Notes under the pieces: generated by a model
Seen by the model: only the letters and a program-made list of their open reading frames with translations
Told to the model about the DNA's origin: nothing
The model's database searches: none
DNA from: Propylenella binzhouense
GTDB taxonomy: Bacteria > Pseudomonadota > Alphaproteobacteria > Rhizobiales > Afifellaceae
NCBI RefSeq assembly: GCF_009866965.1
Contig: NZ_SPKJ01000008.1
Location: forward strand, 1 to 64,000
Direction: 5' to 3'
DNA length: 64,000 nucleotides
Translations under genes and position numbers: made by a program
Part shown: positions 3,230-64,000 of the stretch, one piece after another
Numbering within the stretch: position 1 is the first letter of the stretch
How the letters are laid out: each line of letters begins with the position of its first letter

Positions 3230-3817
3230 TCAGAGCGCCTTCGAGCCGAGCTCTTCCATCTTTGCAAGCCAGCCCGTCCGGCCGCCGCCCTCCTTCGCCG
3301 CGACCATGCCGACCAGGCTCTCGCGGACCGGCCGGATGCCGCAGAACTTCAGGATGTTGCGCTCGAAGCTCTTCAGGCTGTGGGCGCCGAAATACCAGCG
3401 ATAGACGAGCGCGGGCATGCCCATCGTGACGACGATCCGGGCCGAGCGGCCCTTCAGGCGCTGCGTCCAGGCCGTGCCGGCAGCCTCGCCTGAGACCGCG
3501 AAGCCCGGGCGGAGCGCCTGCTCGAGGAAGCCCTTCAGGAGTGCCGGCATCGCGCCCAGCCAGAGCGGATAGACGAAGACGAGATGCTCGGCCCAGCCGA
3601 TATTGTCCTGCGCCTGGACGATGTCATCCGGCGGCGCGGCGTGCTCCCAGTCGGCCTGCGTCCTGAGGAGCGGAAACGCGAGCGATGCGACGTCGATCTG
3701 CCGGACCTCGTGGCCGGCCGCCTCCGCGCCCTTCCGATAGGCCTCCCCGAGCGCGCGGCAGAAGCGCTCCGGCCTGGGATCCGGATGCCCCTGGATGATG
3801 CAGATCCGCTTCGCCAT
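3230..3817 (-). CDS. NAD(P)H dehydrogenase (quinone), flavodoxin-like fold
   Basis: A 195-residue protein of the NQO/KefF/MdaB-like family, which reduces quinones or other electrophiles by two electrons using FMN or FAD. The N-terminal strand and phosphate loop (IIQGHPDPRPERFCRAL), the HLVFVYPLWLGAMPALLKGFLEQ segment and VTMGMPALVYRWYFG near the flavin site are typical, and the length fits. It is monocistronic and convergent with the helicase gene. The physiological substrate cannot be deduced. Confidence 0.85.
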   Translation of the reverse strand: MAKRICIIQGHPDPRPERFCRALGEAYRKGAEAAGHEVRQIDVASLAFPLLRTQADWEHAAPPDDIVQAQDNIGWAEHLVFVYPLWLGAMPALLKGFLEQALRPGFAVSGEAAGTAWTQRLKGRSARIVVTMGMPALVYRWYFGAHSLKSFERNILKFCGIRPVRESLVGMVAAKEGGGRTGWLAKMEELGSKAL

Positions 3818-3881
3818 GGAGATCCCCGCGGTTCAACCTGCCTCCTCCGATATAGTCCTGTCGAAGACGGGGCTGCCGATC

Positions 3882-3897
3882 CTTGCGGAATCGCAAG
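3882..3897. promoter_or_regulatory. Short dyad in the divergent quinone reductase / prmA interval
   Basis: CTTGCG-GAAT-CGCAAG is a perfect 6-bp inverted repeat about 65 bp upstream of the quinone reductase start. Small flavin reductases are often controlled by a regulator binding such a dyad, but no regulator gene is adjacent. The rest of the 292-bp interval 3818-4109 shows nothing recognisable. Confidence 0.3.
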
Positions 3898-4109
3898 ATG
3901 AGCGGGGATTCGTCTTGCAGGCCGGGCGCGATCGGGAGCGGCCGGGTGCCCTGCCGATCTCCCTGCCTTGATGGGCCGGGGTCCCTCCGGGGCCGCGGCG
4001 CCCGACCGGCCGGTCGGCGCATGCCGCGCACCGCGGGGCCCTGCGGCCGGCTCCGCGGCGCGCCCAACGAAGTCGGGAAATCTCCCCGCATTGGTGCTAA
4101 GGGCGGGCG

Positions 4110-4994
4110 ATGATCCTCAAAGCGACCTTCACCGCTCCCGAGCCCGAGGCCCGCCGCATCGCCGCTTGCCTGGAACGCGAATTCGAAGACGGCGCCGTGC
4201 CGGTGGCGCTCTTCGAGGAGCCGGAAAGGCGGTTCACGGTCGATCTCTATTTCGAGGCGGGCGAGCCCGACGCGGTCGCGGCCATGGTCGGCGACAGGCT
4301 GGCGGCCAACGGGATCGCGGCGCGGCCCGAGGTCGAGGTGCTTCCGGAGGCGGACTGGATCGCCGAAGGGCTGAAGGCGCTGCAGCCGGTCGAGGCCGGC
4401 CGCTTCGTGATCCATGGCAGCCACGACCGGGCGACCGTCCGACCGGGCCGGGTCGCGATCGAGATCGAGGCCGGCCAGGCCTTCGGAACCGGCCACCATG
4501 GCACCACCGCCGGCTGCCTGGCGGTCCTCGACCGCCTCACGCGCGCGCGCCGGTTCGAAAACCCGCTGGATCTCGGCACGGGATCCGGTGTTCTCGCCAT
4601 CGCGCTCGCGAAGGTGCTCCGCGTCCCGGTGCTCGCCACCGACATCGATCCGGTTGCGATCCGGGTCGCGCGCGAGAACGCGGCGCTCAACCGCGTCGCG
4701 CCGCTCGCGAATTTCGTCGCGGCGGGAGGAATGCAGCACGGCGCAATCCGCAGGCGGGCTCCCTTCGATCTCATCGTCGCGAACATCCTGGCGGAGCCGC
4801 TGATGCGGCTGGCGCCTGCCATTGCCGGCGCCCTCGCCCCGAACGGCGTGCTGGTGCTCTCCGGCCTTCTCAGGCACCAGCGCGAGCGCGTCGTCGCCGC
4901 CTATGCGCTGCAGGGGCTGCGCCTGGACTCGGCGCGGATATTCGAGGGCTGGGCCGTACTGGTGCTGGCGCGCCGACACGCGCGACAAGAATAA
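4110..4994 (+). CDS. prmA: Ribosomal protein L11 methyltransferase PrmA
   Basis: A 294-residue SAM-dependent methyltransferase expected to trimethylate ribosomal protein L11. The SAM loop LDLGTGSGVLAIAL begins near residue 152, followed by the acidic ATDIDP strand and VANILAEPLMRLAP (about 224), which corresponds to the PrmA motif NILA.PL. The segment AFGTGHHGTTAGCL is also diagnostic of PrmA. Length matches the family. A perfect inverted repeat follows the stop codon directly. Confidence 0.93.
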   Translation: MILKATFTAPEPEARRIAACLEREFEDGAVPVALFEEPERRFTVDLYFEAGEPDAVAAMVGDRLAANGIAARPEVEVLPEADWIAEGLKALQPVEAGRFVIHGSHDRATVRPGRVAIEIEAGQAFGTGHHGTTAGCLAVLDRLTRARRFENPLDLGTGSGVLAIALAKVLRVPVLATDIDPVAIRVARENAALNRVAPLANFVAAGGMQHGAIRRRAPFDLIVANILAEPLMRLAPAIAGALAPNGVLVLSGLLRHQRERVVAAYALQGLRLDSARIFEGWAVLVLARRHARQE

Positions 4995-5018
4995 GGCCGG
5001 GGCCCGAGGGCCCCGGCC
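4995..5018. terminator. Inverted repeat between prmA and the DUF1127 gene
   Basis: GGCCGGGGCCC (4995-5005) and GGGCCCCGGCC (5008-5018) form a perfect 11-bp stem beginning one base after the prmA stop. The two flanking genes are convergent, so it could serve both. There is no T-run on either side, so it is not a textbook terminator. Confidence 0.6.
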
Positions 5019-5040
5019 TCCAAGAGACGTCCGTCCGGCC

Positions 5041-5256
5041 TTAGGCCGACGCCCGGCCGATCGCCCGCGCGACCTCGGCACGCGTATAGCCGAGATCGGC
5101 AAGCGTCCGGTCGTCCATGAGCGCGATCTGCTGTGCGATCAGGCGCTCGGCCTGGCGGGTCCGCGCCGCAACGACCGCATCCACCGCGCGGGCGAAAAAG
5201 CTCTTGCCCTGGCGCGCTTCGCGGGTAATGGCACCGGCATAGGTGCTCGCAGCCAT
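5041..5256 (-). CDS. Small DUF1127 (YjiS-like) protein
   Basis: A 71-residue basic protein ending in the DUF1127 signature (MDDRTLADLGYTRAEVARAIGRA). Members with this domain in alphaproteobacteria include small RNA-binding proteins and regulators of phosphate, carbon or motility genes. The start ATG at 5256 follows a GGAGG box. The gene stands alone, with its own promoter candidate. The domain call is firm; the specific role is unknown. Confidence 0.85.
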   Translation of the reverse strand: MAASTYAGAITREARQGKSFFARAVDAVVAARTRQAERLIAQQIALMDDRTLADLGYTRAEVARAIGRASA

Positions 5257-5298
5257 GATGGCCTCCTCCAAGAAGAAATGTCCTGTGTTCCGGGTAGT

Positions 5299-5328
5299 TA
5301 GATAGCCGTTCCTGAGAGTCCGCGTCAG
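5299..5328 (-). promoter_or_regulatory. Candidate promoter of the DUF1127 gene
   Basis: Read on the minus strand: CTGACG, an 18-bp spacer, then TATCTA, placed about 45 bp upstream of the start codon. Both hexamers match the general consensus at four of six positions. This is a prediction from sequence only. Confidence 0.35.
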
Positions 5329-5436
5329 GGCCTGCGCCGCATGGCTGCCTTGTTTCTTTTGCATGTGCGAAGAGCGCGGGAGCACCGCAGCGACCGCGCC
5401 CTGTGCGCTGCCGGGCACCCATGCTAAGAGCAGGCG

Positions 5437-7290
5437 ATGTTCCAGAGCTTCGAAGACAGAGCCGACGGCAGCCGCGGCGCGGAGCGCGCGGAGGCACTCC
5501 GCGCAATGCTCGCCCCGCTCGGGATCGACGGCTTCATCGTGCCGCGCGCAGACGAGCACCAGGGCGAGTACGTGCCCCCCTCCGCCGAAAGGCTCGCCTG
5601 GCTGACCGGCTTCACGGGCTCCGCGGGCACGGCGGTGGTGCTGCGCGACAGGGCCGCCATCTTCATCGACGGCCGCTACACCCTCCAGGTCCGCGACCAG
5701 GTCGACACGGCCGTGTTCGAGCCCGTCTCCGTCATCGAGACCCCGGTCTCCGCCTGGCTCAGGGCCAATGCCGGCCACGGCGCGCGGATCGGCTACGATC
5801 CCTGGCTGATGACGCGGGCGCAGGTGCGCCAGATCGCCGAGGCGATCGAGGGCGCAGGCGGCACGCTGGTGCCGGTCGAGGCCAACCCTGTCGACGCGAT
5901 CTGGCAGGACCGGCCCGCCCCGCCGCTCGCTCCGGTCGGCGAACATCCCGAAGAACTCGCCGGCCGGCCGGTCTCCTCGAAGCTCGAGGAGCTCGGGCGC
6001 GCGCTCCGCGAGAAGCGGGTCGACGCCGCGATCGTCACCGATCCGGCCTCGATCGCCTGGGCCTTCAACATCCGGGGCGACGACGTCCCGCACACGCCGC
6101 TCCCCCTCTCCTTCGCAATCCTCGCGGCCGAGGGACGGCCGACGCTCTTCATCGACGGCCGCAAGCTCTCCAACGCCGTCAGGGATCGCCTGGAAGGCTT
6201 TGCCGACATCCTGGAGCCGAGCGCCTTCCGCGACGCGCTCGAGGCGCTCGGGCGCGGCGGCCGTCGCGTGCTCTACGATCCGAACGGATCGGGCGAGGCC
6301 GTGGCGCGTCTCGTCGAGGGGCATGGCGGCACGATCGTCGAGGGCGCCGACCCCGTCGCGCTGCCCAAGGCCCGCAAGACGCCGGCGGAAATCGCCGCCA
6401 CCCGGCGCGCGCATGTGCGTGACGGCGCCGCGATGGTGCGCTTCCTGTGCTGGCTGGACCGGCATGGTTCGGACGGATCCCAGACCGAGATAAGCCTGGC
6501 CCGCAGACTGGAGGACGCCCGCCGGACGACCGCCGAGGCCGACGGACAGGCGCTCGCCGGCATCTCCTTCGACACGATCTCCTCGACCGGCCCGAATGCG
6601 GCGATCAATCATTACCGCGTGACCCGGCGGACCGACCGGACGGTCGCGCCGGGCGACCTCTATCTCGTCGATTCCGGCGGGCAATATCGCGACGGCACCA
6701 CCGACGTCACCCGCACGGTGCTGATCGGCACGGCCGCCCCCGAGCGGCTCGACCTCTATCGCGACCGCTTCACCCGGGTGCTGAAGGGCATGATCGCCAT
6801 CGCCTCGGCCCGCTTCCCGAAAGCGACCACCGGGGCCCAGATCGACGCCCTCGCCCGCGCTGCGCTCTGGCGCGCAGGGCTCGATTTCGACCACGGCACC
6901 GGCCACGGCGTCGGAGCCTATCTCTCCGTGCACGAGGGCCCGCAGCGGATCGCCAAGACCGGCCACACGCCGCTCGAGCCCGGCATGATCCTCTCCGACG
7001 AGCCGGGCTACTACCGGGCCGGCGATTTCGGAATCCGGATCGAGAACCTCGTCGTCGTGCGGGAAGCGGAGCCGATTCCCGGCGGCGACCGGCCCATGCT
7101 CGGCTTCGACACGATCACGCTCGCGCCGATCGACAGGCGCCTCGTCGCCCCTCGCCTGATGGACGCGGCCGAGATCGCATGGCTCGACGCCTATCACATG
7201 CGCGTCTGGGGCACCCTTTCCGGCTGGGACACGCTCGACGCGGCGGAGCGCGACTGGCTGGCCGAAGCCTGCCGCCCGCTCGTCGGCTGA
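5437..7290 (+). CDS. pepP: Xaa-Pro aminopeptidase (aminopeptidase P family, M24)
   Basis: A 617-residue three-domain aminopeptidase P that removes N-terminal residues preceding proline. Two creatinase-like N-terminal domains (about 1-330) precede the pita-bread catalytic domain. Metal ligands are visible: Asp in DSGGQYRDGTTDVTRT (about 412 and 423), His in GTGHGVG (490), Glu in SDEPGYY (522) and Glu in IRIENL (536). The length above 600 residues fits the eukaryotic-like long aminopeptidase P group rather than E. coli PepP (about 440). Monocistronic and divergent from the DUF1127 gene. Confidence 0.92.
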   Translation: MFQSFEDRADGSRGAERAEALRAMLAPLGIDGFIVPRADEHQGEYVPPSAERLAWLTGFTGSAGTAVVLRDRAAIFIDGRYTLQVRDQVDTAVFEPVSVIETPVSAWLRANAGHGARIGYDPWLMTRAQVRQIAEAIEGAGGTLVPVEANPVDAIWQDRPAPPLAPVGEHPEELAGRPVSSKLEELGRALREKRVDAAIVTDPASIAWAFNIRGDDVPHTPLPLSFAILAAEGRPTLFIDGRKLSNAVRDRLEGFADILEPSAFRDALEALGRGGRRVLYDPNGSGEAVARLVEGHGGTIVEGADPVALPKARKTPAEIAATRRAHVRDGAAMVRFLCWLDRHGSDGSQTEISLARRLEDARRTTAEADGQALAGISFDTISSTGPNAAINHYRVTRRTDRTVAPGDLYLVDSGGQYRDGTTDVTRTVLIGTAAPERLDLYRDRFTRVLKGMIAIASARFPKATTGAQIDALARAALWRAGLDFDHGTGHGVGAYLSVHEGPQRIAKTGHTPLEPGMILSDEPGYYRAGDFGIRIENLVVVREAEPIPGGDRPMLGFDTITLAPIDRRLVAPRLMDAAEIAWLDAYHMRVWGTLSGWDTLDAAERDWLAEACRPLVG

Positions 7291-7355
7291 TCCGCCCCAA
7301 GCAGCACCGAAGCCGCTCCGCCGATTCCGCACGCGGGTAGCTCGCCCACCCCTTC

Positions 7356-7373
7356 GATCACGCTGTCGTGATC
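7356..7373. promoter_or_regulatory. Dyad in the leader region of the RTX gene
   Basis: GATCACG-CTGT-CGTGATC is a perfect 7-bp inverted repeat 177 bp upstream of the RTX start codon, followed by an AT-richer stretch (about 7385-7445) unlike its surroundings. It is a plausible operator or a terminator remnant of the preceding gene, with no T-run to support the latter. Confidence 0.35.
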
Positions 7374-7549
7374 AGGGGCAGGCGCGATTTCGTCGATTGT
7401 CGACCTTCTTCAACTTTCTCTGTCATGTTAATATTGGCTGCCGGAATTCTGGGAGCAATTCTTCCGGCGTGCTCCGGAACTCCTAAGTTTTCCAGCACTC
7501 CAACTATTTCAGAGGGCCGGCCCCAGAATCCGGCCCCGGGAGAGGGCTC

Positions 7550-9622
7550 ATGGCGCTGGTCAAGGGCAGCAGCGGAAGCGATTTCATCCACCGGGCCGGG
7601 GACGGCCGGGCACCCCCGCTCGGCACGAACGAGGTCACCGGTGTCACGACGGCCGCGGACACGGTCTATGCGGGCGCCGGCGACGACATTCTCTATGGCG
7701 ACGACGGCGACGACACGCTCTTCGGGGGCGACGACAACGACAGTCTCCACGGCGGCGCAGGCAACGACACGCTGAACGGCGGCAACGGGACCGACACCGC
7801 CGACTACAGCGAAGCGTCCGGTCCCGTCACCGTTAATCTCACCGCCAAGGTCGCGTTCGGCGACGGCAACGATATTCTCGTCGCCATCGAGAACGTCGTC
7901 GGGTCCGGCTTCAACGACACGCTGCTCGGCGACGGCGGCAACAACGCACTGAGCGGCGGCGGCGGCGACGACCACCTGCTCGGCCTCGGCGGCGACGACA
8001 CGATGGATGGCGGCGACGGAACGGACCTCGTCAACTATTCCTATTCCGCAGCCGCGGTCACCGTCGATCTCGCGGCCGGCACGGCGACGGGCGAGGGGTC
8101 GGACACGATCATCGACGTCGAGAACGTCTACGGTTCCGCCTTCGGCGACAATCTCGCCGGCGACGGCGGCAACAACGTGATCTGGGGCGCGGACGGCGAC
8201 GACGTGCTGACGGGCCGCGGCGGAAACGACACGCTGAACGGCGGCGGCGGCATCGACACGGTGAACTATGCCGAGGCGTCGGGCCCGGTCGTCGTGAACC
8301 TCACCGCAAGCGTCGCGACCGGGGACGGAAACGACACGGTGGTCGGCATCGAGAATGTCGTCGGGTCCGCATTCGCGGACAAGCTCCTCGGCAATGCCGT
8401 CGCCAACGAGCTCGACGGCGGAGCGGGCGACGACGTCCTCAAGGGCTTCGACGGCGCGGACACCCTGATCGGGGGCGAGGGAAGAGACCACCTGGTCGGC
8501 GGTGCGGACGGCGACGCTTTCGTTTTCGGCGACGGCGACACGGGTGCGACAACGGCGAGCGCCGACGTCATCGTCGACTGGGAGATCGCCGACTGGGTCG
8601 ACATGTCGATCGCCGGCACGGCCGGGAACTACATCGAGAGCCTGCTGGTCGATTCCTGGTACGTCTATGGCTGGTGGACCGTCATCCCCGGCTGGTGGAC
8701 GCCGGGCTGGTGGTCCTGGACCCCCGGCTGGCAGTACTGGCATCAGGGCTGGTGGACGCCGGGCTGGTGGTCGTGGACGCCGGGATGGCAGACCTGGAAC
8801 CCGGGGTGGTGGCATCCGGGCTGGTGGTCCTGGACCCCGGGCTGGTGGACGCCCGGCTGGTGGTCCTGGACCCCGGGCTGGCAGACCTGGCACCCGGGCT
8901 GGCAGACCTGGAACCCTGGCTGGTGGCACTCCGGTTGGTGGACGCCCGGCTGGTGGACGCCGGGCTGGTGGTCCTGGACCCCGGGCTGGCAGACCTGGAA
9001 CATGGGCTGGTGGCATCCGGGCTGGTGGAACGGCGGATGGTGGACGCCGGGCTGGTGGACCCCGGGCTGGTGGTCATGGACGCCGGGATGGCAGACCTGG
9101 AACCCTGGCTGGTGGCACTCCGGCTGGTGGACGCCCGGCTGGTGGACGCCCGGCTGGTGGTCCTGGAGCCCGGGCTGGTGGTCCTGGACCCCGGGCTGGC
9201 AGACCTGGAACCCGGGCTGGTGGCACCCCGGCTGGCAGACCTGGAATGCCGGCTGGTGGCATCCCGGCTTCTGGTCCTGGACGCCCGGCTGGCAGACCTG
9301 GAATCCCGGTTGGTGGCAGCCCGGCTGGTGGGCCTGGACTCCGGGCTCCTGGACCTGGACAATGGGCTGGTGGCACCCGGGCTGGTCCTACTGGAATTCC
9401 GGCTGGTGGGCCTACGAGTACTACTTCGCGTGGTCGATCGAGGACGCGGCGGCTTATGCGGAGGCGAACTACGTCGGCTACACGTTCTTCTTCACGTGGA
9501 ATCCCTCGACCGACACAGGCTATCTGGTGGCGGATCTCGACGGGAACGGCTCCTTCGAGACGGGGATCGAGCTCGACGGCGCCGGCTACGGCTGGGAGTT
9601 CGACTACACCGACCTGATCTGA
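7550..9622 (+). CDS. RTX calcium-binding protein with a giant tryptophan-rich repeat insert
   Basis: A 690-residue protein. Residues 40-325 are RTX repeats (GGxGxDxLxGG type, for example GGAGNDTLNGGNGTD) alternating with beta segments such as GPVTVNLTAKVAFGDGND. Residues 370-620 consist almost wholly of 5- and 7-residue modules such as GWWTP, GWWSWTP, GWQTWNP and GWWHP. Residues 621-690 resemble the end of RTX/serralysin C-terminal domains (YLVADLDGNGSFETGIELDG). There is no N-terminal signal peptide, which with RTX repeats implies type I secretion through a C-terminal signal; no ABC exporter is nearby. The tryptophan block appears inserted within the C-terminal domain. A purine-rich GGGAGAGGG precedes the ATG. 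I do not recognise a described family for the tryptophan modules. RTX assignment is strong; function unknown. Confidence 0.85.
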   Translation: MALVKGSSGSDFIHRAGDGRAPPLGTNEVTGVTTAADTVYAGAGDDILYGDDGDDTLFGGDDNDSLHGGAGNDTLNGGNGTDTADYSEASGPVTVNLTAKVAFGDGNDILVAIENVVGSGFNDTLLGDGGNNALSGGGGDDHLLGLGGDDTMDGGDGTDLVNYSYSAAAVTVDLAAGTATGEGSDTIIDVENVYGSAFGDNLAGDGGNNVIWGADGDDVLTGRGGNDTLNGGGGIDTVNYAEASGPVVVNLTASVATGDGNDTVVGIENVVGSAFADKLLGNAVANELDGGAGDDVLKGFDGADTLIGGEGRDHLVGGADGDAFVFGDGDTGATTASADVIVDWEIADWVDMSIAGTAGNYIESLLVDSWYVYGWWTVIPGWWTPGWWSWTPGWQYWHQGWWTPGWWSWTPGWQTWNPGWWHPGWWSWTPGWWTPGWWSWTPGWQTWHPGWQTWNPGWWHSGWWTPGWWTPGWWSWTPGWQTWNMGWWHPGWWNGGWWTPGWWTPGWWSWTPGWQTWNPGWWHSGWWTPGWWTPGWWSWSPGWWSWTPGWQTWNPGWWHPGWQTWNAGWWHPGFWSWTPGWQTWNPGWWQPGWWAWTPGSWTWTMGWWHPGWSYWNSGWWAYEYYFAWSIEDAAAYAEANYVGYTFFFTWNPSTDTGYLVADLDGNGSFETGIELDGAGYGWEFDYTDLI
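8657..9409 (+). repeat. Tryptophan-rich GWW repeat array (about 40 modules)
   Basis: Hand parsing gives 40 consecutive modules, each starting with Gly: 18 of five residues (mostly GWWTP or GWWHP) and 22 of seven (GWWSWTP, GWQTWNP and variants). About 92 of 251 residues are Trp. Higher-order blocks recur, such as GWWTP-GWWTP-GWWSWTP-GWQTWNx-GWWHx. On the DNA level GGC-TGG-TGG creates 25 copies of the octamer GCTGGTGG. Because Trp is only TGG, the opposite strand and other frames contain almost no stop codons here, which produces long spurious reading frames. Confidence 0.95.
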
Positions 9623-56277: not shown

Positions 56278-57432
56278 TCAGCCCGGATTGGCGACCGGCC
56301 GTGCGCCGGCCGGCGCGGCCGCCTTGGGCGGCGCCTCGTGGGCGCGGCGCTCCTTGGCGTAGCGCACGAGCGCCGCGAAGCGGTAGATGCCGTGGACGAA
56401 CTTGCCGTAGGGCATGGTCACGAACAGGCTGAAGACGACGCCGAGATGGACCGCGAGCAGGATCCCCATGGCCGGGGTGGCGCGCAGCAGGAGAAGCAGC
56501 AGGCCCGTCAGCCCGGTCAGGAAGAGCATCGCGATGAAGGCGACGTCCATGCCGGTTTTCGTGTGGTCGACCATGGCCGGATCGCGGCGACGCTTCGCGA
56601 TGTAGAGGCCGATCGGACCAACCACGAGGCCGATGCCGCCGAGCGTCCCGAGGACGACCGGCAGGTCGTACCAGGGATAGGGGGCCTCGCGTCCGAGGAA
56701 ATAGTGGTAGAGCGTCGCGATGCAGGTCGACGCGAAGCACAGCATGAAGCCGTAGAACGTCGCGTGGTGGGCGTGCCGGCGCCCGTCCTTCGGGCGCGGA
56801 CTGTCGTTCATGCAGCCCATGCCGCCGCCGTCGAGATAGCGCAGGCTGGCGGCGTCCTTGACCGCCTGCCAGATCGATCCGCCGTCATCGAGCGGATGGC
56901 TCGGCTCGCCGATATCCCGCCAGAAGTTCCGGAAGCCCATGACGAGCGCGACGATCGCGTAGATGAAGGCGGCGCCGAAAATGGCCACCATCCAGTTGTG
57001 CGGCATCAGGCGGTAGAACGCGCCCGCTCCCGTCTGCGTGGCGAATACGACCGAAGGATCGTTCGCGGCGACGAAGCCGAGGATGAAGACGGCGACGCTC
57101 AGCGCCGCGATCAGGCTGATCGCGAGCCCGTTGCGCGCAAAGACGCCTGCGAATGCGCGCGGCCAGGCATAGGCCTGGTAGGTCTCGCCGCGGAGCTTGG
57201 CGAGGGTCTGCGGGACGTCGACGCTGAATTCGTGCGGCGGCGAGAACTGGCAGTCGTAGTAGCAGGCGCCGCAGGCATGGCAGAGATTCGCGAAATAGTT
57301 GAGGTCGCCCGGCGTGAACGCGCGGCGCATCTCCATCGCGGGAAAGACGGCGCACAGGCCTTCGCAATAGCGACAGGCATTGCAGATCGTCATGATCCGA
57401 TCCGCTTCCTGCTGCGTGTCAGTTGCGTACAT
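56278..57432 (-). CDS. tcuB: TcuB/CitB-type iron-sulfur membrane protein
   Basis: A 384-residue protein with two N-terminal 4Fe-4S motifs (CNACRYCEGLC and CHACGACYYDC), then about five or six transmembrane helices. In Salmonella TcuB re-oxidises the flavin of TcuA and passes electrons into the membrane. It overlaps tcuA by 14 bp, consistent with that partnership. Confidence 0.88.
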   Translation of the reverse strand: MYATDTQQEADRIMTICNACRYCEGLCAVFPAMEMRRAFTPGDLNYFANLCHACGACYYDCQFSPPHEFSVDVPQTLAKLRGETYQAYAWPRAFAGVFARNGLAISLIAALSVAVFILGFVAANDPSVVFATQTGAGAFYRLMPHNWMVAIFGAAFIYAIVALVMGFRNFWRDIGEPSHPLDDGGSIWQAVKDAASLRYLDGGGMGCMNDSPRPKDGRRHAHHATFYGFMLCFASTCIATLYHYFLGREAPYPWYDLPVVLGTLGGIGLVVGPIGLYIAKRRRDPAMVDHTKTGMDVAFIAMLFLTGLTGLLLLLLRATPAMGILLAVHLGVVFSLFVTMPYGKFVHGIYRFAALVRYAKERRAHEAPPKAAAPAGARPVANPG

Positions 57433-58858
57433 TGGCAGCCGCCTCTCGTCCCGCGATCCGTCCGAAGACGCCGCCGATGGTCATTCCGATGCCGGCGAGA
57501 TAGCCCTTTCCGAGCACGTTTCCGGCCATGATCTCGCCCGCGGCGAACATGTTCGCGGACGGCTTGCCGCCTTCCATGATGATGCGGGCCTCCCTGTTCA
57601 CGCGTGTCCCGAGATAGGTGAAGGTGATCCCCGGCCGAACCGGATAGGCGTAGAAGGGCGGCGTATCGATGCGCCGGGCCCAGTGCGACTTCGGGGGCGT
57701 CAGGCCCTCCGTCCGGCAGTCGTCCAGCACGGTGGAATCGAAGTTGCCGGAGCGCACGGCCGCATTGAACTCCGACACTGTTCTTTCAAGCTTCTGCGGG
57801 TCGAGGTTCAACTGCTGCGCAAGGCCCGCAAGCGTGTCTGCCTTGAGCGGCGGATAGACCGACGGCATGAAGGACGTGATGGATTTCTGGTCGATGAGGA
57901 TGTAGGCGATCTGGTCCGGCTGGCCGGCGACGAGGCGGCCCCAGATCGCGTAGCGCTTCGGCCAGAAATCCTCACCCTCGTCGTAGAACCGCTCGGCGTC
58001 GCGGTTGACCACGATGCCGAAGACGACGCAGTCGAGCCGGGTGACGATGCCGCCGTCGAACTTCGGCGAGCGCGCATCGATCGCCACCGCATGGCACTGC
58101 GTCGGGTCGCCGATCGGCTGGACACCGGCGTCGAGCAGCATCCTGAGGATCGAGCCGCGATTGTGGCGCGTGCCGCGTATGAGGAAATTGTCGGCGGGCG
58201 GGCCCCAATATTCCCGGAGCCATTCGAGGTTCGATTCGAAGCCGCCGGCGGCGGCGACCAGCGCGCCGCCCCGGACGACGAATTCGCGCTCGCCGATGCG
58301 GACCGTCGCCGACAGGAAGGCGCCGTCCTCGATCGCGAGCGCCACCACCGGCGCATCGTAGAAGATCTCGACCCCGAGATCCTCCGCCGTCCGGTAGAGC
58401 GCGTTCAGCATCGAGCGCCCGCCGCCGAGAAAGAACGCATTGGTGCGGCCGAGGCTGAGGGTGCCGCCCAAGGACGGCTGGAACCGGACGCCCTGGTTCG
58501 TGTGGAAGTCCCAGAGCTCCTTCGACTGCGCGATCGTGTAGCGCGCCAGCTCCTCGTCGGTCTGGCCGCCCGTGACGCGCAGCAGGTCGTCCCAGAATTC
58601 GTCCTCGTGATAGGGGCCGGTCAGAACCTCGTTCGGCTCGTCATGCGCCACGCGCATGTTGCGCGTGTGCCGCGTATTGCCGCCGCGGTAGAATTTCGGC
58701 GCGGCCTCGAAGACGACGACGGACCGGCCCGCCCGCCGCGCATTGTTGGCCGCGCAGAGAGCGGCGTTTCCGCCGCCGATCACGACCACGTCGTAATGTT
58801 CCGCGGGGCGCGCCGCTTCCCCGGGCGGAGCTGGATTCGGATCTGACGCCATGTTCAT
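57419..58858 (-). CDS. tcuA: FAD-dependent tricarballylate dehydrogenase, TcuA-like
   Basis: A 479-residue flavoprotein of the succinate dehydrogenase / fumarate reductase family. FAD loop VVVIGGGNAALCAANNARRAGRSVVVFE (about 24-51), GGNTRHTRNMR, VAAAGGFESN, and the C-terminal GEIMAGNVLGKGYLAGIGMTIGGVFGRIAG. TcuA oxidises tricarballylate to cis-aconitate; the actual substrate here may be a relative. The ATG at 58858 gives the FAD loop its normal distance from the N-terminus; an open frame further upstream is discarded. Confidence 0.85.
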   Translation of the reverse strand: MNMASDPNPAPPGEAARPAEHYDVVVIGGGNAALCAANNARRAGRSVVVFEAAPKFYRGGNTRHTRNMRVAHDEPNEVLTGPYHEDEFWDDLLRVTGGQTDEELARYTIAQSKELWDFHTNQGVRFQPSLGGTLSLGRTNAFFLGGGRSMLNALYRTAEDLGVEIFYDAPVVALAIEDGAFLSATVRIGEREFVVRGGALVAAAGGFESNLEWLREYWGPPADNFLIRGTRHNRGSILRMLLDAGVQPIGDPTQCHAVAIDARSPKFDGGIVTRLDCVVFGIVVNRDAERFYDEGEDFWPKRYAIWGRLVAGQPDQIAYILIDQKSITSFMPSVYPPLKADTLAGLAQQLNLDPQKLERTVSEFNAAVRSGNFDSTVLDDCRTEGLTPPKSHWARRIDTPPFYAYPVRPGITFTYLGTRVNREARIIMEGGKPSANMFAAGEIMAGNVLGKGYLAGIGMTIGGVFGRIAGREAAANVRN

Positions 58859-59187
58859 CGCACATTTCCGTATACAACAGGATACATGATTGCAAGGAGG
58901 CTGTGCGCGTCGCGCCGGGCGCTCCGCGGCAGGCGGGCATCCGGCCTGCAACCGCGCCGCACAGCCCCGAAGCCTGCCTTCGCTCCGCATCGGCCATACC
59001 TGGAAATACAATTGCATACGAACGGCGGGACTTCCCCTCATCCTTCTGTATAATCCCCCGTACGTTGCAGTTGCCGGTTGCGAGCGGCATGGTGCGGCAC
59101 CACGGCCAGGGAGGAGAGGCCGGCGACCGGGCCTCCCCGTCCGCCGCGATTCGGCCCGGCGCCGGATCGGAAGCAGCAGGAGTGATG
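58859..59187. promoter_or_regulatory. Divergent control region, tcuA / GntR gene
   Basis: No gene in this 329-bp stretch. It carries a GTATAC palindrome at 58870-58875, just before tcuA, with a second half GATAC at 58881-58885, a GCATAC at 59014-59019, and a perfect TATAAT at 59049-59054 that could be the -10 of the GntR gene (no good -35). The segment 59000-59065 is AT-richer than its surroundings. Confidence 0.5.
58868..58885 (-). promoter_or_regulatory. Candidate GntR operator before tcuA
   Basis: The palindrome GTATAC at 58870-58875, inside CCGTATACAA, stands 12 bp upstream of the tcuA start codon with a GATAC half-site following. FCD-type GntR regulators often recognise TTGTATACAA-like dyads. 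A second copy, CGTATACG, precedes the crotonase operon. Confidence 0.5.
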
Positions 59188-59886
59188 ATGGCGGACGCAA
59201 CGGACCCGATCCGGAACATGCCCTCAGCCTCGGGCGAACCGCACGGCGGATCCAAGACGTCCCGCGCCCAGTGGGTGTACGAATCGCTCCGGAACGGCAT
59301 CCAGCTCGGGCGATACGGTCGCGGCGAACGCATCCGCGAGGAGGAGATCGCGCGTGCGCTGGGCGTCAGCCGCACCCCGGTCCGCGAGGCGATCTCGCGT
59401 CTTCAGGCGCGCGGGCTCCTCGAAATGGCGCCCGGCGGCCTGGTGGTGGCGACCCTCAGCCGGCCCCAGACGATCGAGCTCTACGCCATGCGCGAGATCC
59501 TCGAGGGTTCCGCGGCGCGGTTCGCCGCGCAGCATGCCTCGCCGAGCGAGATCGCGACGCTCCATCGGCTCGCCCAGGCGTTCGAGCGCGCGGCCGGCGA
59601 TGCCGACCGGCAGGCGCATTACAACCGGGAGTTCCACGGCGCCATCTACGAGGCGGCGCACAACCGCTATCTGATGCGGACCCTCGACGAGGTGCACGAT
59701 GCGATGGCGCTCCTGCCGAGCACGACCTTCACGGTGTCGGGGCGGCCGGAGCGGGCCGTCGCGGAGCATGCCGCCATCGTCGCGGCGATCGAGGCCCGGG
59801 ACGCGGACCGGGCCGAGCACGCGGCCCGCTCCCACATCCAGATGGCGCAGGAGGCGCGCCTCGGGATGATGTTCGACATCGGCTGA
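59188..59886 (+). CDS. GntR-family regulator with FCD domain
   Basis: A 232-residue regulator: winged helix (QWVYESLRNGIQLGRYGRGERIREEEIARALGVSRTPVREAISRLQARGLLEMAPGGLVVATL, about 28-90) and FCD ligand-binding domain with metal-site residues in REILEGSAARFAAQ and AEHAAIVAAIEARDADRAEHAARSHI. Two adjacent ATGs exist (59185, 59188); the GGAG at 59179-59182 favours the second. Probably senses a catabolic acid and controls tcuAB and the opposite operon. Confidence 0.9.
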   Translation: MADATDPIRNMPSASGEPHGGSKTSRAQWVYESLRNGIQLGRYGRGERIREEEIARALGVSRTPVREAISRLQARGLLEMAPGGLVVATLSRPQTIELYAMREILEGSAARFAAQHASPSEIATLHRLAQAFERAAGDADRQAHYNREFHGAIYEAAHNRYLMRTLDEVHDAMALLPSTTFTVSGRPERAVAEHAAIVAAIEARDADRAEHAARSHIQMAQEARLGMMFDIG

Positions 59887-59914: not shown

Positions 59915-60718
59915 TCAGCCCTTCGCCTCGGCCGCCCGCCTCAGGTCCGAGACGCGGCGGCTCGCTTCCGCCATCAGGAAGGCGACATCCGTCTGCGTGG
60001 TGATGAAGCGGACGCCCTCATGGATGAGCCTGGTCTGGCGTCCGAGGTCGCGGTCGCCGCCGAGGCCGGCCCATTTGCCGTGCTTCCTGCAGGCCTCGAT
60101 GATCCGGCCGATGGCCGCCATGATCCTGGGCTCGCCGAAGGCGCCGGGCGTGCCCCACGCATTGAGGAGATCGTTGCAGCCGATATGGACGACGTCGACG
60201 CCCTCGACGGCCGCAATCGCCTCGACGTTCTCGAGCCCCTCCGGGGTCTCGATCATGCAGACCACGAGGGTGGTTTCGTTCAGGATCCGGATCGCCTCCG
60301 GAATCGGCTTCGGCTTGAAGTCGAAGATCGAATAGCCGCCCGCGACCGACCTCTTGCCGACCGGCGCGAACTTGCAGATCTGGACCGCCCGCCGCGCCTC
60401 TGCGGCGTTGTTCACGTCCGGGAAGACGACCCCCATGACGCCATTGTCGAGCAGGCGCGGGATCTCGGGATCCTCGAGGTTGCGCGCCCGGACGAGCGTG
60501 GCGATCCCGCAGCCGAGCGCCGCCTGCGCAATGTGCCCGATCGTCTCCGCCGAGAAGATGGCGTGCTGCCCGTCGACGAAGATGAAATCGTGCCCGCTCG
60601 CCTTGGCGATCCGTGCGATCTCGCCCGAGCGCGCGAGCCGCACCACCATTCCGAGGCCGACCTCGCCGGCACTCATTCGATCCCGGAGCGGGTTGCGGAT
60701 GTCCTGGGTCGCAGTCAT
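59915..60718 (-). CDS. HpcH/HpaI aldolase / citrate lyase-family protein
   Basis: A 267-residue TIM-barrel class II pyruvate-type aldolase. The catalytic His is in FIFVDGQHAIFS (HpaI has DGEHAPN), metal ligands in VVCMIETPEGLENV (Glu) and HIGCNDLL (Asp), and GGDRD near the end. It would split or join a 2-oxo-4-hydroxy acid. Third gene of the crotonase-Ldh-aldolase run, 25 bp after the Ldh gene. Substrate unknown. Confidence 0.85.
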   Translation of the reverse strand: MTATQDIRNPLRDRMSAGEVGLGMVVRLARSGEIARIAKASGHDFIFVDGQHAIFSAETIGHIAQAALGCGIATLVRARNLEDPEIPRLLDNGVMGVVFPDVNNAAEARRAVQICKFAPVGKRSVAGGYSIFDFKPKPIPEAIRILNETTLVVCMIETPEGLENVEAIAAVEGVDVVHIGCNDLLNAWGTPGAFGEPRIMAAIGRIIEACRKHGKWAGLGGDRDLGRQTRLIHEGVRFITTQTDVAFLMAEASRRVSDLRRAAEAKG

Positions 60719-60743: not shown

Positions 60744-61850
60744 TCAGCTTCCTAACGGCTGCGACGCGACGGCGAGCAGCGGCACGCCGCGTCCCCGCGC
60801 ATCGGCCAGAAGCGGCTCGAGATCCTTCGCCTGGTAGGGGATCCCGGCTGCGAGCCGCCGCGCCTCCTGGCGCGCCTCGGGCTCGCCGGGCATCAGAATC
60901 TCGTCGAACCCCTCGGCCCTGGGGCAGGTCTTCACACGTTCGACGAGCACGTCCATGCGCGCGCGGAAATCCGCTGCCGACATGAAGAGATCCGGCCTGA
61001 TCGCCAAGAAGAAATGCCCGACATTCTGCGGTCGCGTGTAGTCCTTGTACTGGTCGGTGACGTCGCCCGCAAAGGCGGCGCCCGACAGCACCCCGCCCAT
61101 GATGTCCATCAGCATGGAGAGGCCGGATCCCTTCGGGCCGCCCATCGGCAGCACCACGCCCTGGAGCGCCTTGACCGGGTCGGTCGTCGGCTTGCCTTCC
61201 GCGTCGAGCGCGTAGCCGAGCGGGATCTGCTCCCCCATCCGCTGCGCGCGCCGGATCTTGCCGCGCGCGGCCACGCTCGGCGCCATGTCGAGAACGAAGG
61301 GTCCGCGCTCGCCGCCCGGTGCGCCGGCCGCGAACGGGCTCGTCCCGAGAAGCGCCTCCCGCCCACCCCAGGGCGGCATGGCGCGCGAGGCATTGGTGAA
61401 GACGAACGCGATGAAGCCCGCCTCCACCGCCTGCAGGACATAGCTCGCGGCCATGCCGAAATGCGTGCTGCGCATCGCCGACACCATCCCGATGCCGACC
61501 TCGCCCGCCATCGCCATGGCCTCCGCCATGGCGCGCGTGGCGATCACGAAGCCGAACCCGTCGCCGCCGTCGAGATGCGCGACAGCCGGCGTGACACGGC
61601 GGGGCCGGAGGTTCGGGCGCGGATTGACGAGCCCGCGCCGGACACGGTCGAGATAGCCGCCGAGCCGCGCGATCCCGTGCGTGTCGACGCCGCGGAGATC
61701 GGCGCGCACCAGGCATTCGGCGATGACCCGCGCGTCCTGCGGGGGGACCTCGTAGGTGGCGAGAAGCGCTGCAACGAAGCGGCGCGCCTCCTCCGCCTCC
61801 ACATGGACCGTGCCGCTCGCCGCGGCCGCGGCACTCTTCGCATCCTGCAT
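60744..61850 (-). CDS. Ldh-family (malate/L-sulfolactate-type) NAD(P)-dependent oxidoreductase
   Basis: A 368-residue member of the malate/L-lactate/ureidoglycolate dehydrogenase family, unrelated to classical Rossmann LDH. Motifs: RADLRGVDTHGIARLGGYLDRVRRGLVNPRP with catalytic His, MRSTHFGMAASYVLQAVEAGFIAFVFTNASRAMPPWGG and FVLDMAPSVAARGKIRRAQRMGEQIPLGYALD. The ATG at 61850 follows GGAAG at five bases; a TTG at 61862 is also possible. Oxidises or reduces a 2-hydroxy/2-oxo acid. Confidence 0.88.
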   Translation of the reverse strand: MQDAKSAAAAASGTVHVEAEEARRFVAALLATYEVPPQDARVIAECLVRADLRGVDTHGIARLGGYLDRVRRGLVNPRPNLRPRRVTPAVAHLDGGDGFGFVIATRAMAEAMAMAGEVGIGMVSAMRSTHFGMAASYVLQAVEAGFIAFVFTNASRAMPPWGGREALLGTSPFAAGAPGGERGPFVLDMAPSVAARGKIRRAQRMGEQIPLGYALDAEGKPTTDPVKALQGVVLPMGGPKGSGLSMLMDIMGGVLSGAAFAGDVTDQYKDYTRPQNVGHFFLAIRPDLFMSAADFRARMDVLVERVKTCPRAEGFDEILMPGEPEARQEARRLAAGIPYQAKDLEPLLADARGRGVPLLAVASQPLGS

Positions 61851-61892
61851 CGTCGCTTCCAACCCTGCTTCTTTTCGCGTCCCGCGGTGCAG

Positions 61893-62687
61893 CTAGCGCC
61901 CGGTGAAGACCGGCTTCCGCTTCTCGCGGAAGGCGCGGCGGCCCTCCGCATAGTCGGCGCTGTCGAGGCAGGCCGCGGCGAGCGCATCGAGACGCGTCAT
62001 GTCCCGTTCCTGCGGATCCTTCAGCGCGGCGTCGATGGTGAGCTTCGAGGCCTCCACGGTGAGCGGCGCGTTCTCCGAAATCGTCGTCGCCATCGCGCGC
62101 ACGGTCTCCTCGAGCGCGTCCACCGGGACCACGCGGTTCACGAGCCCGATCCGCCACGCCTCCGCGGCGTCGAGCCGGCGCGCGGTGAAGAGCATTTCCT
62201 TCGCATAGGCCGGCCCGACCAGCTCGGTGAGCATCTTCAGGTTCTCGATGCCGTAGCTCAGGCCGAGCCGTGCCGCGGGAATGCCGAACACGGAATCCTC
62301 CGATGCGATCCTGATGTCCGCGCGCATCGCGATGGCGAGCCCGCCGCCGAGGCAGAAGCCGCGGATCATGGCGACGAGCGGCTTGCGAAGCGCCGACATC
62401 CTCGCCCGCCCGCCCTCTGAGAGCTCCTTGTAGAGTTCGCCGGCGCTCGCATCCGCGCGCTTCTCGTCGAACTCGGTGACGTCCGCCCCTGCCGTGAACG
62501 CCCGCTCGCCGGCGCCCTTCATGACGACGACCCGCACCTCCGGGTCCGCATCGTAGGTCGCGAGCGCGGTCACGATGGCGCGCCACATCTCGAGCGAGAT
62601 CGCATTGCGGCGCTCCGGCCGGTTGAAGACGAGCCAGCCGATCCCGCCTTCCCTTTCGGCGAGCACCTTGTCCGTGCCGAGTTCCAT
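61893..62687 (-). CDS. Crotonase-fold protein without canonical catalytic glutamates
   Basis: A 264-residue enoyl-CoA hydratase/isomerase family protein. The fold motifs are intact: FNRPERRNAISLEMWRAI, the oxyanion loop AFTAGADVTEF, and GFCLGGGLAIAMRADIRIASEDSVFGIPAARLGL. In true hydratases the latter reads GGGcELA and FGxPE; here the two glutamates are Ala118 and Ala138. Simple hydration is therefore doubtful; isomerase, hydrolase or decarboxylase chemistry is possible. First gene of its operon. Confidence 0.85.
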   Translation of the reverse strand: MELGTDKVLAEREGGIGWLVFNRPERRNAISLEMWRAIVTALATYDADPEVRVVVMKGAGERAFTAGADVTEFDEKRADASAGELYKELSEGGRARMSALRKPLVAMIRGFCLGGGLAIAMRADIRIASEDSVFGIPAARLGLSYGIENLKMLTELVGPAYAKEMLFTARRLDAAEAWRIGLVNRVVPVDALEETVRAMATTISENAPLTVEASKLTIDAALKDPQERDMTRLDALAAACLDSADYAEGRRAFREKRKPVFTGR

Positions 62688-63030: not shown

Positions 63031-64000
63031 TCAGAGCTTCACGTTGTAATTGTTGATCAGATAGTTGCGGAGCCACTCGCGGGCCTCGTCCGGCATGGTC
63101 GTGGCCACCTGGTAGAGCTTCTCCGCCGCCGCGCCGGTCGCCTGCTTGTACTCGCCGAGGATCTCGCCCTTGTTCGCCTGGAGCTCGGGATCGGCAACCG
63201 CCTGCTCGAAGGCCTTGGTATAGGCGTCCACGATGTCCTTCGGCGTCTTCTTCGGCAGCATGACGGGCTTCTGCGCTGCGAAGCCCGAGCCGAACACCGC
63301 CTTGTAGACGTCGAACTCGATGCCTTCCGGCTTCTTGCCGTGCATCATCTCGTAGGCCTCGACGAAATGCGGCAGATCCGGGAAGGTCGGATCGCGCGCG
63401 AACTCGCCGTTTTCGTCGAGGACGCCCCAGGAGAAGATCGGGACCGCCTTGCCGGCCTCGACCAGCGGAACCACGTTGGCGAGATAGGCGCCGGAGGTCT
63501 GGTAGTCGATCGTGGTCTCGCCGCGCTCGAAGGCGAGCCGGCCGTCGGCGCGGCCCGGCATGCCGAAGACGTAGCGGACGTTGAGCCCGAGCACCAGGAA
63601 GGCGATCATCGGCACGAGGTCGAGCGAGGTCGGGCCCTGGCTGCCGTAGATGAGCTCCTTGTCCTTGATCTTGTTGAGGTCGGCCGCGGACTTCACGCCG
63701 AGATCGGGCGGCAGGTAGCAGACGCCGCCGGTCGGCGAGACAAGCACCGGCGTGAAGTTCTTGTAGTCGTAGCGCACCCGCGGATCGCCGAGCAGATAGG
63801 GGAACTGCGTGGTCGCCGAGGTGACGATGATCATCTTGCCGTCCGGCCGGGCGCGCGCCGCGAACTCGTTGGTTCCGGTGATCGAGCCGCCGCCGGGAAT
63901 GTTCCGGACCACGATGTCCGGGTTTCCCGGAAGATACTTCTTCAGGAACGGAAGATAGAAGCGGGCGAGCACGCTGCTTCCGCCGCCTTCCGAGAAGGGG
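63031..64000 (-). CDS. TctC-family tricarboxylate-binding protein, 5' end outside window
   Basis: The C-terminal 323 or so residues of a periplasmic Bug/TctC receptor; the frame remains open to 64000, so the signal peptide and start are missing. Seen: PFSEGGGSSVLARFYLPFLKKYLPGNPDIVVRNIPGGGSITGTNEFAARARPDGKMIIV, the usual GG...ARxxxP start of the mature fold, and a Gly/Asp-rich ligand loop. Such proteins bind di- and tricarboxylates for a TctAB carrier, whose genes are not in the window. It supports tricarboxylate uptake feeding the adjacent enzymes. Confidence 0.85.
   Translation of the reverse strand, partial: PFSEGGGSSVLARFYLPFLKKYLPGNPDIVVRNIPGGGSITGTNEFAARARPDGKMIIVTSATTQFPYLLGDPRVRYDYKNFTPVLVSPTGGVCYLPPDLGVKSAADLNKIKDKELIYGSQGPTSLDLVPMIAFLVLGLNVRYVFGMPGRADGRLAFERGETTIDYQTSGAYLANVVPLVEAGKAVPIFSWGVLDENGEFARDPTFPDLPHFVEAYEMMHGKKPEGIEFDVYKAVFGSGFAAQKPVMLPKKTPKDIVDAYTKAFEQAVADPELQANKGEILGEYKQATGAAAEKLYQVATTMPDEAREWLRNYLINNYNVKL

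Follow-up and report, generated by a model that had tools for sequence, protein, structure and literature searches.

The window, that is, the whole stretch of DNA that was analyzed (64,000 nucleotides from Propylenella binzhouense), includes near one end a gene coding for a crotonase-fold protein. This gene and its neighbors are arranged as follows:

63031..63999, minus strand: TctC-like solute receptor, upstream of the crotonase gene; extends beyond the window end
61893..62687, minus strand: crotonase-fold protein, PRK06127 (NCBIfam NF004781); 264 amino acids, ATG start
60744..61862, minus strand: Ldh_2 family (malate/L-lactate/sulfolactate-type) dehydrogenase, directly downstream of the crotonase gene, likely in the same operon
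59915..60718, minus strand: HpcH/HpaI-type aldolase, next directly downstream, likely in the same operon as the crotonase gene
58903..59886, plus strand: GntR/FCD regulator, a neighbor
57419..59200, minus strand: TcuA-type FAD-dependent tricarballylate dehydrogenase, a neighbor
56278..57432, minus strand: TcuB-type 4Fe-4S protein, a neighbor

The Ldh_2 gene probably starts at the ATG at 61850. The true start of the TcuA gene is probably downstream of the start of the open reading frame listed above, and that of the GntR/FCD regulator probably lies inside its open reading frame. The TcuA and TcuB homologues, a tricarballylate dehydrogenase and its 4Fe-4S partner, adjoin the divergent regulator between 56278 and 59886. 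An aromatic meta-cleavage type cluster is located just past the window end (L131, G000:C208:62001-82000, at 3540-8440 on the plus strand). It includes genes for a TctA transporter subunit, a 4-oxalomesaconate tautomerase (502 bits), a LigK-type 4-carboxy-4-hydroxy-2-oxoadipate aldolase (363.8 bits) and a catechol 2,3-dioxygenase (321.7 bits). The gene set of the island looks like one for tricarboxylate/aromatic catabolism.

The crotonase open reading frame begins in the context GGAGGAAGC-ATG, with a good ribosome-binding site. An ECH_1 domain (PF00378) spans the full protein with a score of 185.7 bits (cut-off, 27), which places it in the crotonase superfamily, and the subfamily model NF004781 (PRK06127, named 'enoyl-CoA hydratase') matches it over its full length with 355.2 bits (cut-off, 291). 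The AlphaFold2 model, for which 41 family sequences were used as input, was confident (mean pLDDT 94.2, pTM 0.92). Among the PDB entries listed, the best match to the fold was 4k2n (Z 35.2, rmsd 1.7, 261 residues aligned), and all 50 nearest entries listed are crotonase-type by title or name.

Loss of the hydratase glutamates across the subfamily

Two codons of the crotonase gene occupy the places of the catalytic glutamates of enoyl-CoA hydratases in the alignments:

62334..62336, minus strand: Ala118 codon, place of the first hydratase glutamate
62274..62276, minus strand: Ala138 codon, place of the second hydratase glutamate

These places are those of rat Glu144 and Glu164, respectively. 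The two glutamates of the Clostridium acetobutylicum crotonase (5z7r, GGGCEIAM and FGQPEVGLG) pair with Ala118 and Ala138, as do those of the Metallosphaera 3-hydroxypropionyl-CoA dehydratase (5zai) and of E. coli PaaF and CaiD. The crotonase has neither of the glutamates that mark a two-glutamate enoyl-CoA hydratase in the motifs GGGxE and FGxPE.

Conservation was determined in 110 related loci. Eighty of them are named GTDB loci, taken from 102 relatives found by a pattern search, and 30 come from genomes of the family and order; in the order search, loci were taken from 29 others among the 74 matching genomes (the window's own included). The pattern search covered Met34-Trp35, Cys112 and Tyr145, one pattern per locus being sufficient, so the conservation counts at these residues are somewhat biased. 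Tyr145 and Cys112 were present in all of L021 and L102-L130, which belong to the 110 and were chosen without those patterns. For closer comparison, an alignment of 41 sequences (A1) consisted of 40 loci and the window crotonase; it was obtained by thinning the 74 clean loci of full length in the range L021-L101 at 72% identity, which left 41, and then omitting L021, which came from the genome search.

Neither glutamate nor aspartate was found at either position in any of the 110 loci. Position 118 is occupied by alanine in 64 loci, glycine in 24, serine in 6, asparagine in 6, glutamine in 5, leucine in 3 and valine in 2, and position 138 by alanine in 109 and proline in 1. The oxyanion-hole motifs are intact, with Ala68 of the GAD motif present in all 110 loci and Gly115 of the GGG motif in 109. 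A chance substitution or a sequencing error was rejected because both glutamates are missing in every locus. Judging from these sequences, members of this large bacterial subfamily, which is already catalogued, normally have neither glutamate, and the double loss is no peculiarity of the island. The sequence-only reading of this DNA had stated that both hydratase glutamates were replaced, by Ala118 and Ala138, and that the oxyanion loop was intact; the residues of the open reading frame, the four alignments and the conservation counts bore this out. Its view that the product is unlikely to be an ordinary hydratase gained support, since all sampled members of the subfamily share the loss and no acid both invariant and family-specific takes the place of the glutamates.

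The subfamily is widespread. Matches to NF004781 over the cut-off were found in 38 of the 142 genomes sampled in the class, and 59 of the 142 matched at E 1e-60; the 14 control genomes gave one match (Sulfolobus acidocaldarius) and none over the cut-off. With the crotonase as the query (E 1e-60), 74 of 199 genomes of the order matched, whereas its own family gave no more than 2 matching genomes out of 11; both counts include the window's genome, and the distribution is thus patchy. The host genome has 20 places that match the query, and the window gene alone scores over the NF004781 cut-off. All three sampled relatives that were scanned (L022, L095 and L089) also score over it, and nothing that separates the window crotonase from members of the NF004781 family was found in these tests. 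A search of the open-access literature found no paper on a characterized member of the subfamily, and the names PRK06127, NF004781 and PRK06144 also gave none.

The usual neighbor is a CoA-transferase. A gene for a family-III (CaiB/BaiF) enzyme lies within 400 bp of the crotonase in 78 of the 110 loci (tblastn), the family being called (PF02515) from a scan of one representative. In the version based on gene calls, it is directly upstream of the crotonase and on the same strand in 70 of 80 pairs. In L022 (Roseitranquillus, 60% identity), the closest among the 80 of 102 relatives listed, the CoA-transferase gene comes directly after that of the crotonase, and transporter genes of the TctC and TctA types lie no more than 8 kb away. 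Thalassobaculum is another relative with the crotonase gene. An adjacent CoA-transferase is absent at the window locus and in 32 of the 110 loci (tblastn, 400 bp); 14 of these 32 have a serine acetyltransferase-type gene near the crotonase. In the host genome, a 56%-identical CoA-transferase is encoded on contig C10, beside a PRK06144-type crotonase. That locus (L148, G000:C10, 8465-10594, plus strand) has the crotonase gene directly after the family-III CoA-transferase gene, and TctC, TctA and GntR regulator genes are nearby.

The island genes do not accompany the crotonase elsewhere. At E 1e-15, the Ldh_2, TcuB, 4-oxalomesaconate tautomerase, LigK-type and dioxygenase genes were found near it in none of the 110 loci, HpcH, TctC and GntR genes in 1 each, and TcuA-like and TctA genes in 3 each. 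More distant linkage would escape these counts, as the flanks covered reach at most 8 kb for 80 loci and about 1.5 kb for 30. The local gene set was accordingly rejected as an explanation of the crotonase, and the island genes, which are not conserved partners, are a weak guide to its substrate. Other neighbor clusters, such as DUF3014, IF-2B, HlyD, CysE and alpha/beta hydrolase, indicate no pathway, and no conserved neighborhood points to a substrate. The proposal of the sequence-only reading that the crotonase may define the unusual chemistry of the island was not supported: the enzyme type is common, its usual CoA-transferase is missing here, and the genes of the island are near it in 0 to 3 of 110 loci.

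Family-specific residues and candidate acids

Positions were considered family-specific when kept in at least 95% of the 41 aligned sequences and present in no more than 3 of the 16 proteins used for comparison, which were 5 E. coli crotonases and 11 paralogues from the same genome. They are M34, W35, R77, Y86, I108, C112, A138, Y145 and C240. Met34 is kept in 109 of the 110 loci, and the codons and conservation of five others are the following:

62583..62585, minus strand: Trp35 codon; Trp in 106 of 110 loci, Arg in 4
62457..62459, minus strand: Arg77 codon; Arg in 109 of 109 readable loci
62352..62354, minus strand: Cys112 codon; invariant in 110 of 110 loci
62253..62255, minus strand: Tyr145 codon; invariant in 110 of 110 loci
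61968..61970, minus strand: Cys240 codon; Cys in 109 of 109 readable loci

Eight columns of the 41-sequence alignment are at least 90% acidic, and none of the eight is an invariant and family-specific acid that could replace the glutamates. Asp69, Asp124, Asp245 and Glu248 were rejected as a relocated catalytic acid because they are general crotonase positions, and positions 164, 176 and 255 because they are often acidic outside the PRK06127 family too. Position 33, a Glu in the window crotonase, stays a candidate since it is acidic in 38 of the 41 members but in only 3 of the 16 comparison proteins; the remaining 3 members have His or Ala. If its side chain reached the pocket, the site would not be acid-free. 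At the level of sequence, the check for an alternative acid that had been proposed for this gene showed no acid that is both invariant and family-specific and left one candidate, at position 33.

Relatives of the family and a proposed reaction

In a tree of 36 sequences (supports given as SH-aLRT/UFBoot), the PRK06127 family formed a clade (81.9/96) whose sister was the PRK06144-type paralogue from the host genome (68.3/92); ScpB, the E. coli methylmalonyl-CoA decarboxylase, was the next branch outside both (80.3/86). The branch support that would link the family to ScpB is moderate. The paralogue (NF004796, contig C10, 39% identity to the window crotonase) also has neither glutamate (Gly and Ile in their places) and shares Cys112 and Cys240, but it has Leu for Tyr145 and Tyr for Trp35. 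Another paralogue of the host genome, L007 on contig C153, is MenB-like; it has His and Gly in the glutamate places and Asp beside the Tyr145 column, and it groups with E. coli MenB (99.8/100).

ScpB belongs to the same superfamily and is 31% identical to the window crotonase. Its tyrosine in the stretch LGVPYN aligns with Tyr145 in LGLSYG, and this residue, Tyr140, is a functional position of ScpB. The two sites differ, since ScpB keeps a glutamate in the first position and has a histidine in the oxyanion loop (AGHD), both of which the family is without; Ala68 takes the place of the histidine in the crotonase and in 110 of 110 loci. ScpB also has Pro for Ala138. Three PDB entries with titles that call them putative, 4wcz (Novosphingobium) and 4olq/5c9g (Hyphomonas), are 32-37% identical to the crotonase. 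They are without both glutamates and keep the Trp35, Cys112 and Tyr145 columns, but they have Thr-Pro at 137-138 instead of Pro-Ala, and 4olq does not keep Arg77 and Cys240. In 4wcz and 4olq the tyrosine is part of the motif FGxTP..LGLVY, which resembles FSMTP..LGVPY of ScpB.

Base-free reactions fit best with an intact oxyanion hole and an absent glutamate base. The crotonase is an ordinary PRK06127 member, and we tentatively hypothesize, with less than even confidence, that it converts a carboxylated acyl-CoA by way of an enolate, with assistance from a tyrosine and without a glutamate, a decarboxylation being the most likely reaction. A CoA-transferase, in this host probably encoded elsewhere in the genome, would attach CoA to a small organic acid that is probably carboxylated. 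The oxyanion hole of the crotonase would then bind the carbonyl of the thioester, and the thioester enolate would form without a glutamate base, most likely through loss of CO2. Tyr145, at the place of the ScpB tyrosine, would either position the carboxylate that leaves or donate a proton to the enolate, and a second carboxylate might be held by Arg77. The most economical proposal would be that a thioester of the malonyl or dicarboxylate type is decarboxylated with the help of Tyr145, and it agrees with the CoA-transferase partner because such enzymes activate organic acids. The whole-protein scores are evidence against a decarboxylase, as they do not favor methylmalonyl-CoA decarboxylase: its model (NF008506) ranks sixth among the 71 NCBIfam models that match the crotonase, with 168.6 bits and under its cut-off of 257. 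The loci without an adjacent CoA-transferase, the window's and 32 of the 110, also speak against the proposal.

The protein could instead be a hydratase or dehydratase with a special substrate, in which a carboxylate of the substrate, Tyr145 or an acid at another position would activate the water; position 33 is the sole candidate seen for such an acid. In favor are the curated subfamily name, 'enoyl-CoA hydratase', the presence of a 3-hydroxypropionyl-CoA dehydratase and a short-chain enoyl-CoA hydratase among the best-scoring solved relatives of assigned function, and the acidic residue that most members have at position 33. We consider this reading unlikely nonetheless, as both glutamates are absent in all 110 loci, 3 of the 41 members have His or Ala at position 33, and the name is a homology label for which an assay of a member was not found in the literature searched.

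Type I MenB of E. coli offers another precedent, since it also is without both glutamates (Val and Gly) and keeps the GGG and GxD motifs. PMC3637252 describes type I MenB as bicarbonate-dependent, with the bicarbonate at the place of the catalytic base of other crotonases, and names Ser-161, Phe-162 and the functional position Asp-163. In our alignment, the Tyr145 column contains the Asp of a Ser-Phe-Asp stretch of MenB, and this assignment fits the three residues named in that paper. A bicarbonate or another small anion bound in the empty site of the second glutamate could thus serve the crotonase as the base for proton abstraction in an isomerization, a Claisen or a retro-Claisen reaction. 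According to PMC3637252, bicarbonate use was not known for any other crotonase-fold protein, and the crotonase has Tyr145 in place of the MenB Asp and Pro137-Ala138 where MenB has Thr-Gly, which leaves this possibility quite improbable.

A low probability also attaches to an acyl-CoA hydrolase or isomerase with Cys112, Cys240 or Tyr145 as the putative nucleophile or acid/base. Cys112 and Cys240 are conserved in every readable locus and are found in the PRK06144-type paralogue as well, but an invariant cysteine can be structural. That the protein is catalytically dead and assists the CoA-transferase in a structural or regulatory role is very improbable: the hydratase acids are missing and the two genes are paired in 78 of 110 loci, but the oxyanion-hole motifs are intact, the nine family-specific positions hardly vary in members with 40-60% identity to the query, and the crotonase occurs without an adjacent CoA-transferase in the window and in 32 of the 110 loci.

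Significance of the subfamily

The concept of a glutamate-free crotonase is not new, as MenB is already such a case, and PRK06127 is a known but uncharacterized subfamily to which the window crotonase adds one member. Extended to the whole subfamily, tyrosine-assisted enolate chemistry leads to a wider hypothesis, conceivable although doubtful. PRK06127 and the family-III CoA-transferase may form an unrecognized two-step module, present mostly in proteobacteria, that activates an acid and then decarboxylates or otherwise cleaves the CoA ester at a site with Tyr145, Cys112 and Arg77 and no acidic catalytic residue; many genes called 'enoyl-CoA hydratase' would then be misnamed. A common subfamily that carries this name cannot use the usual two-glutamate mechanism, and the name is a probable misannotation. 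Because the subfamily is found so widely, in most loci beside a CoA-transferase, a single assay would give the reaction for many genes, chiefly proteobacterial.
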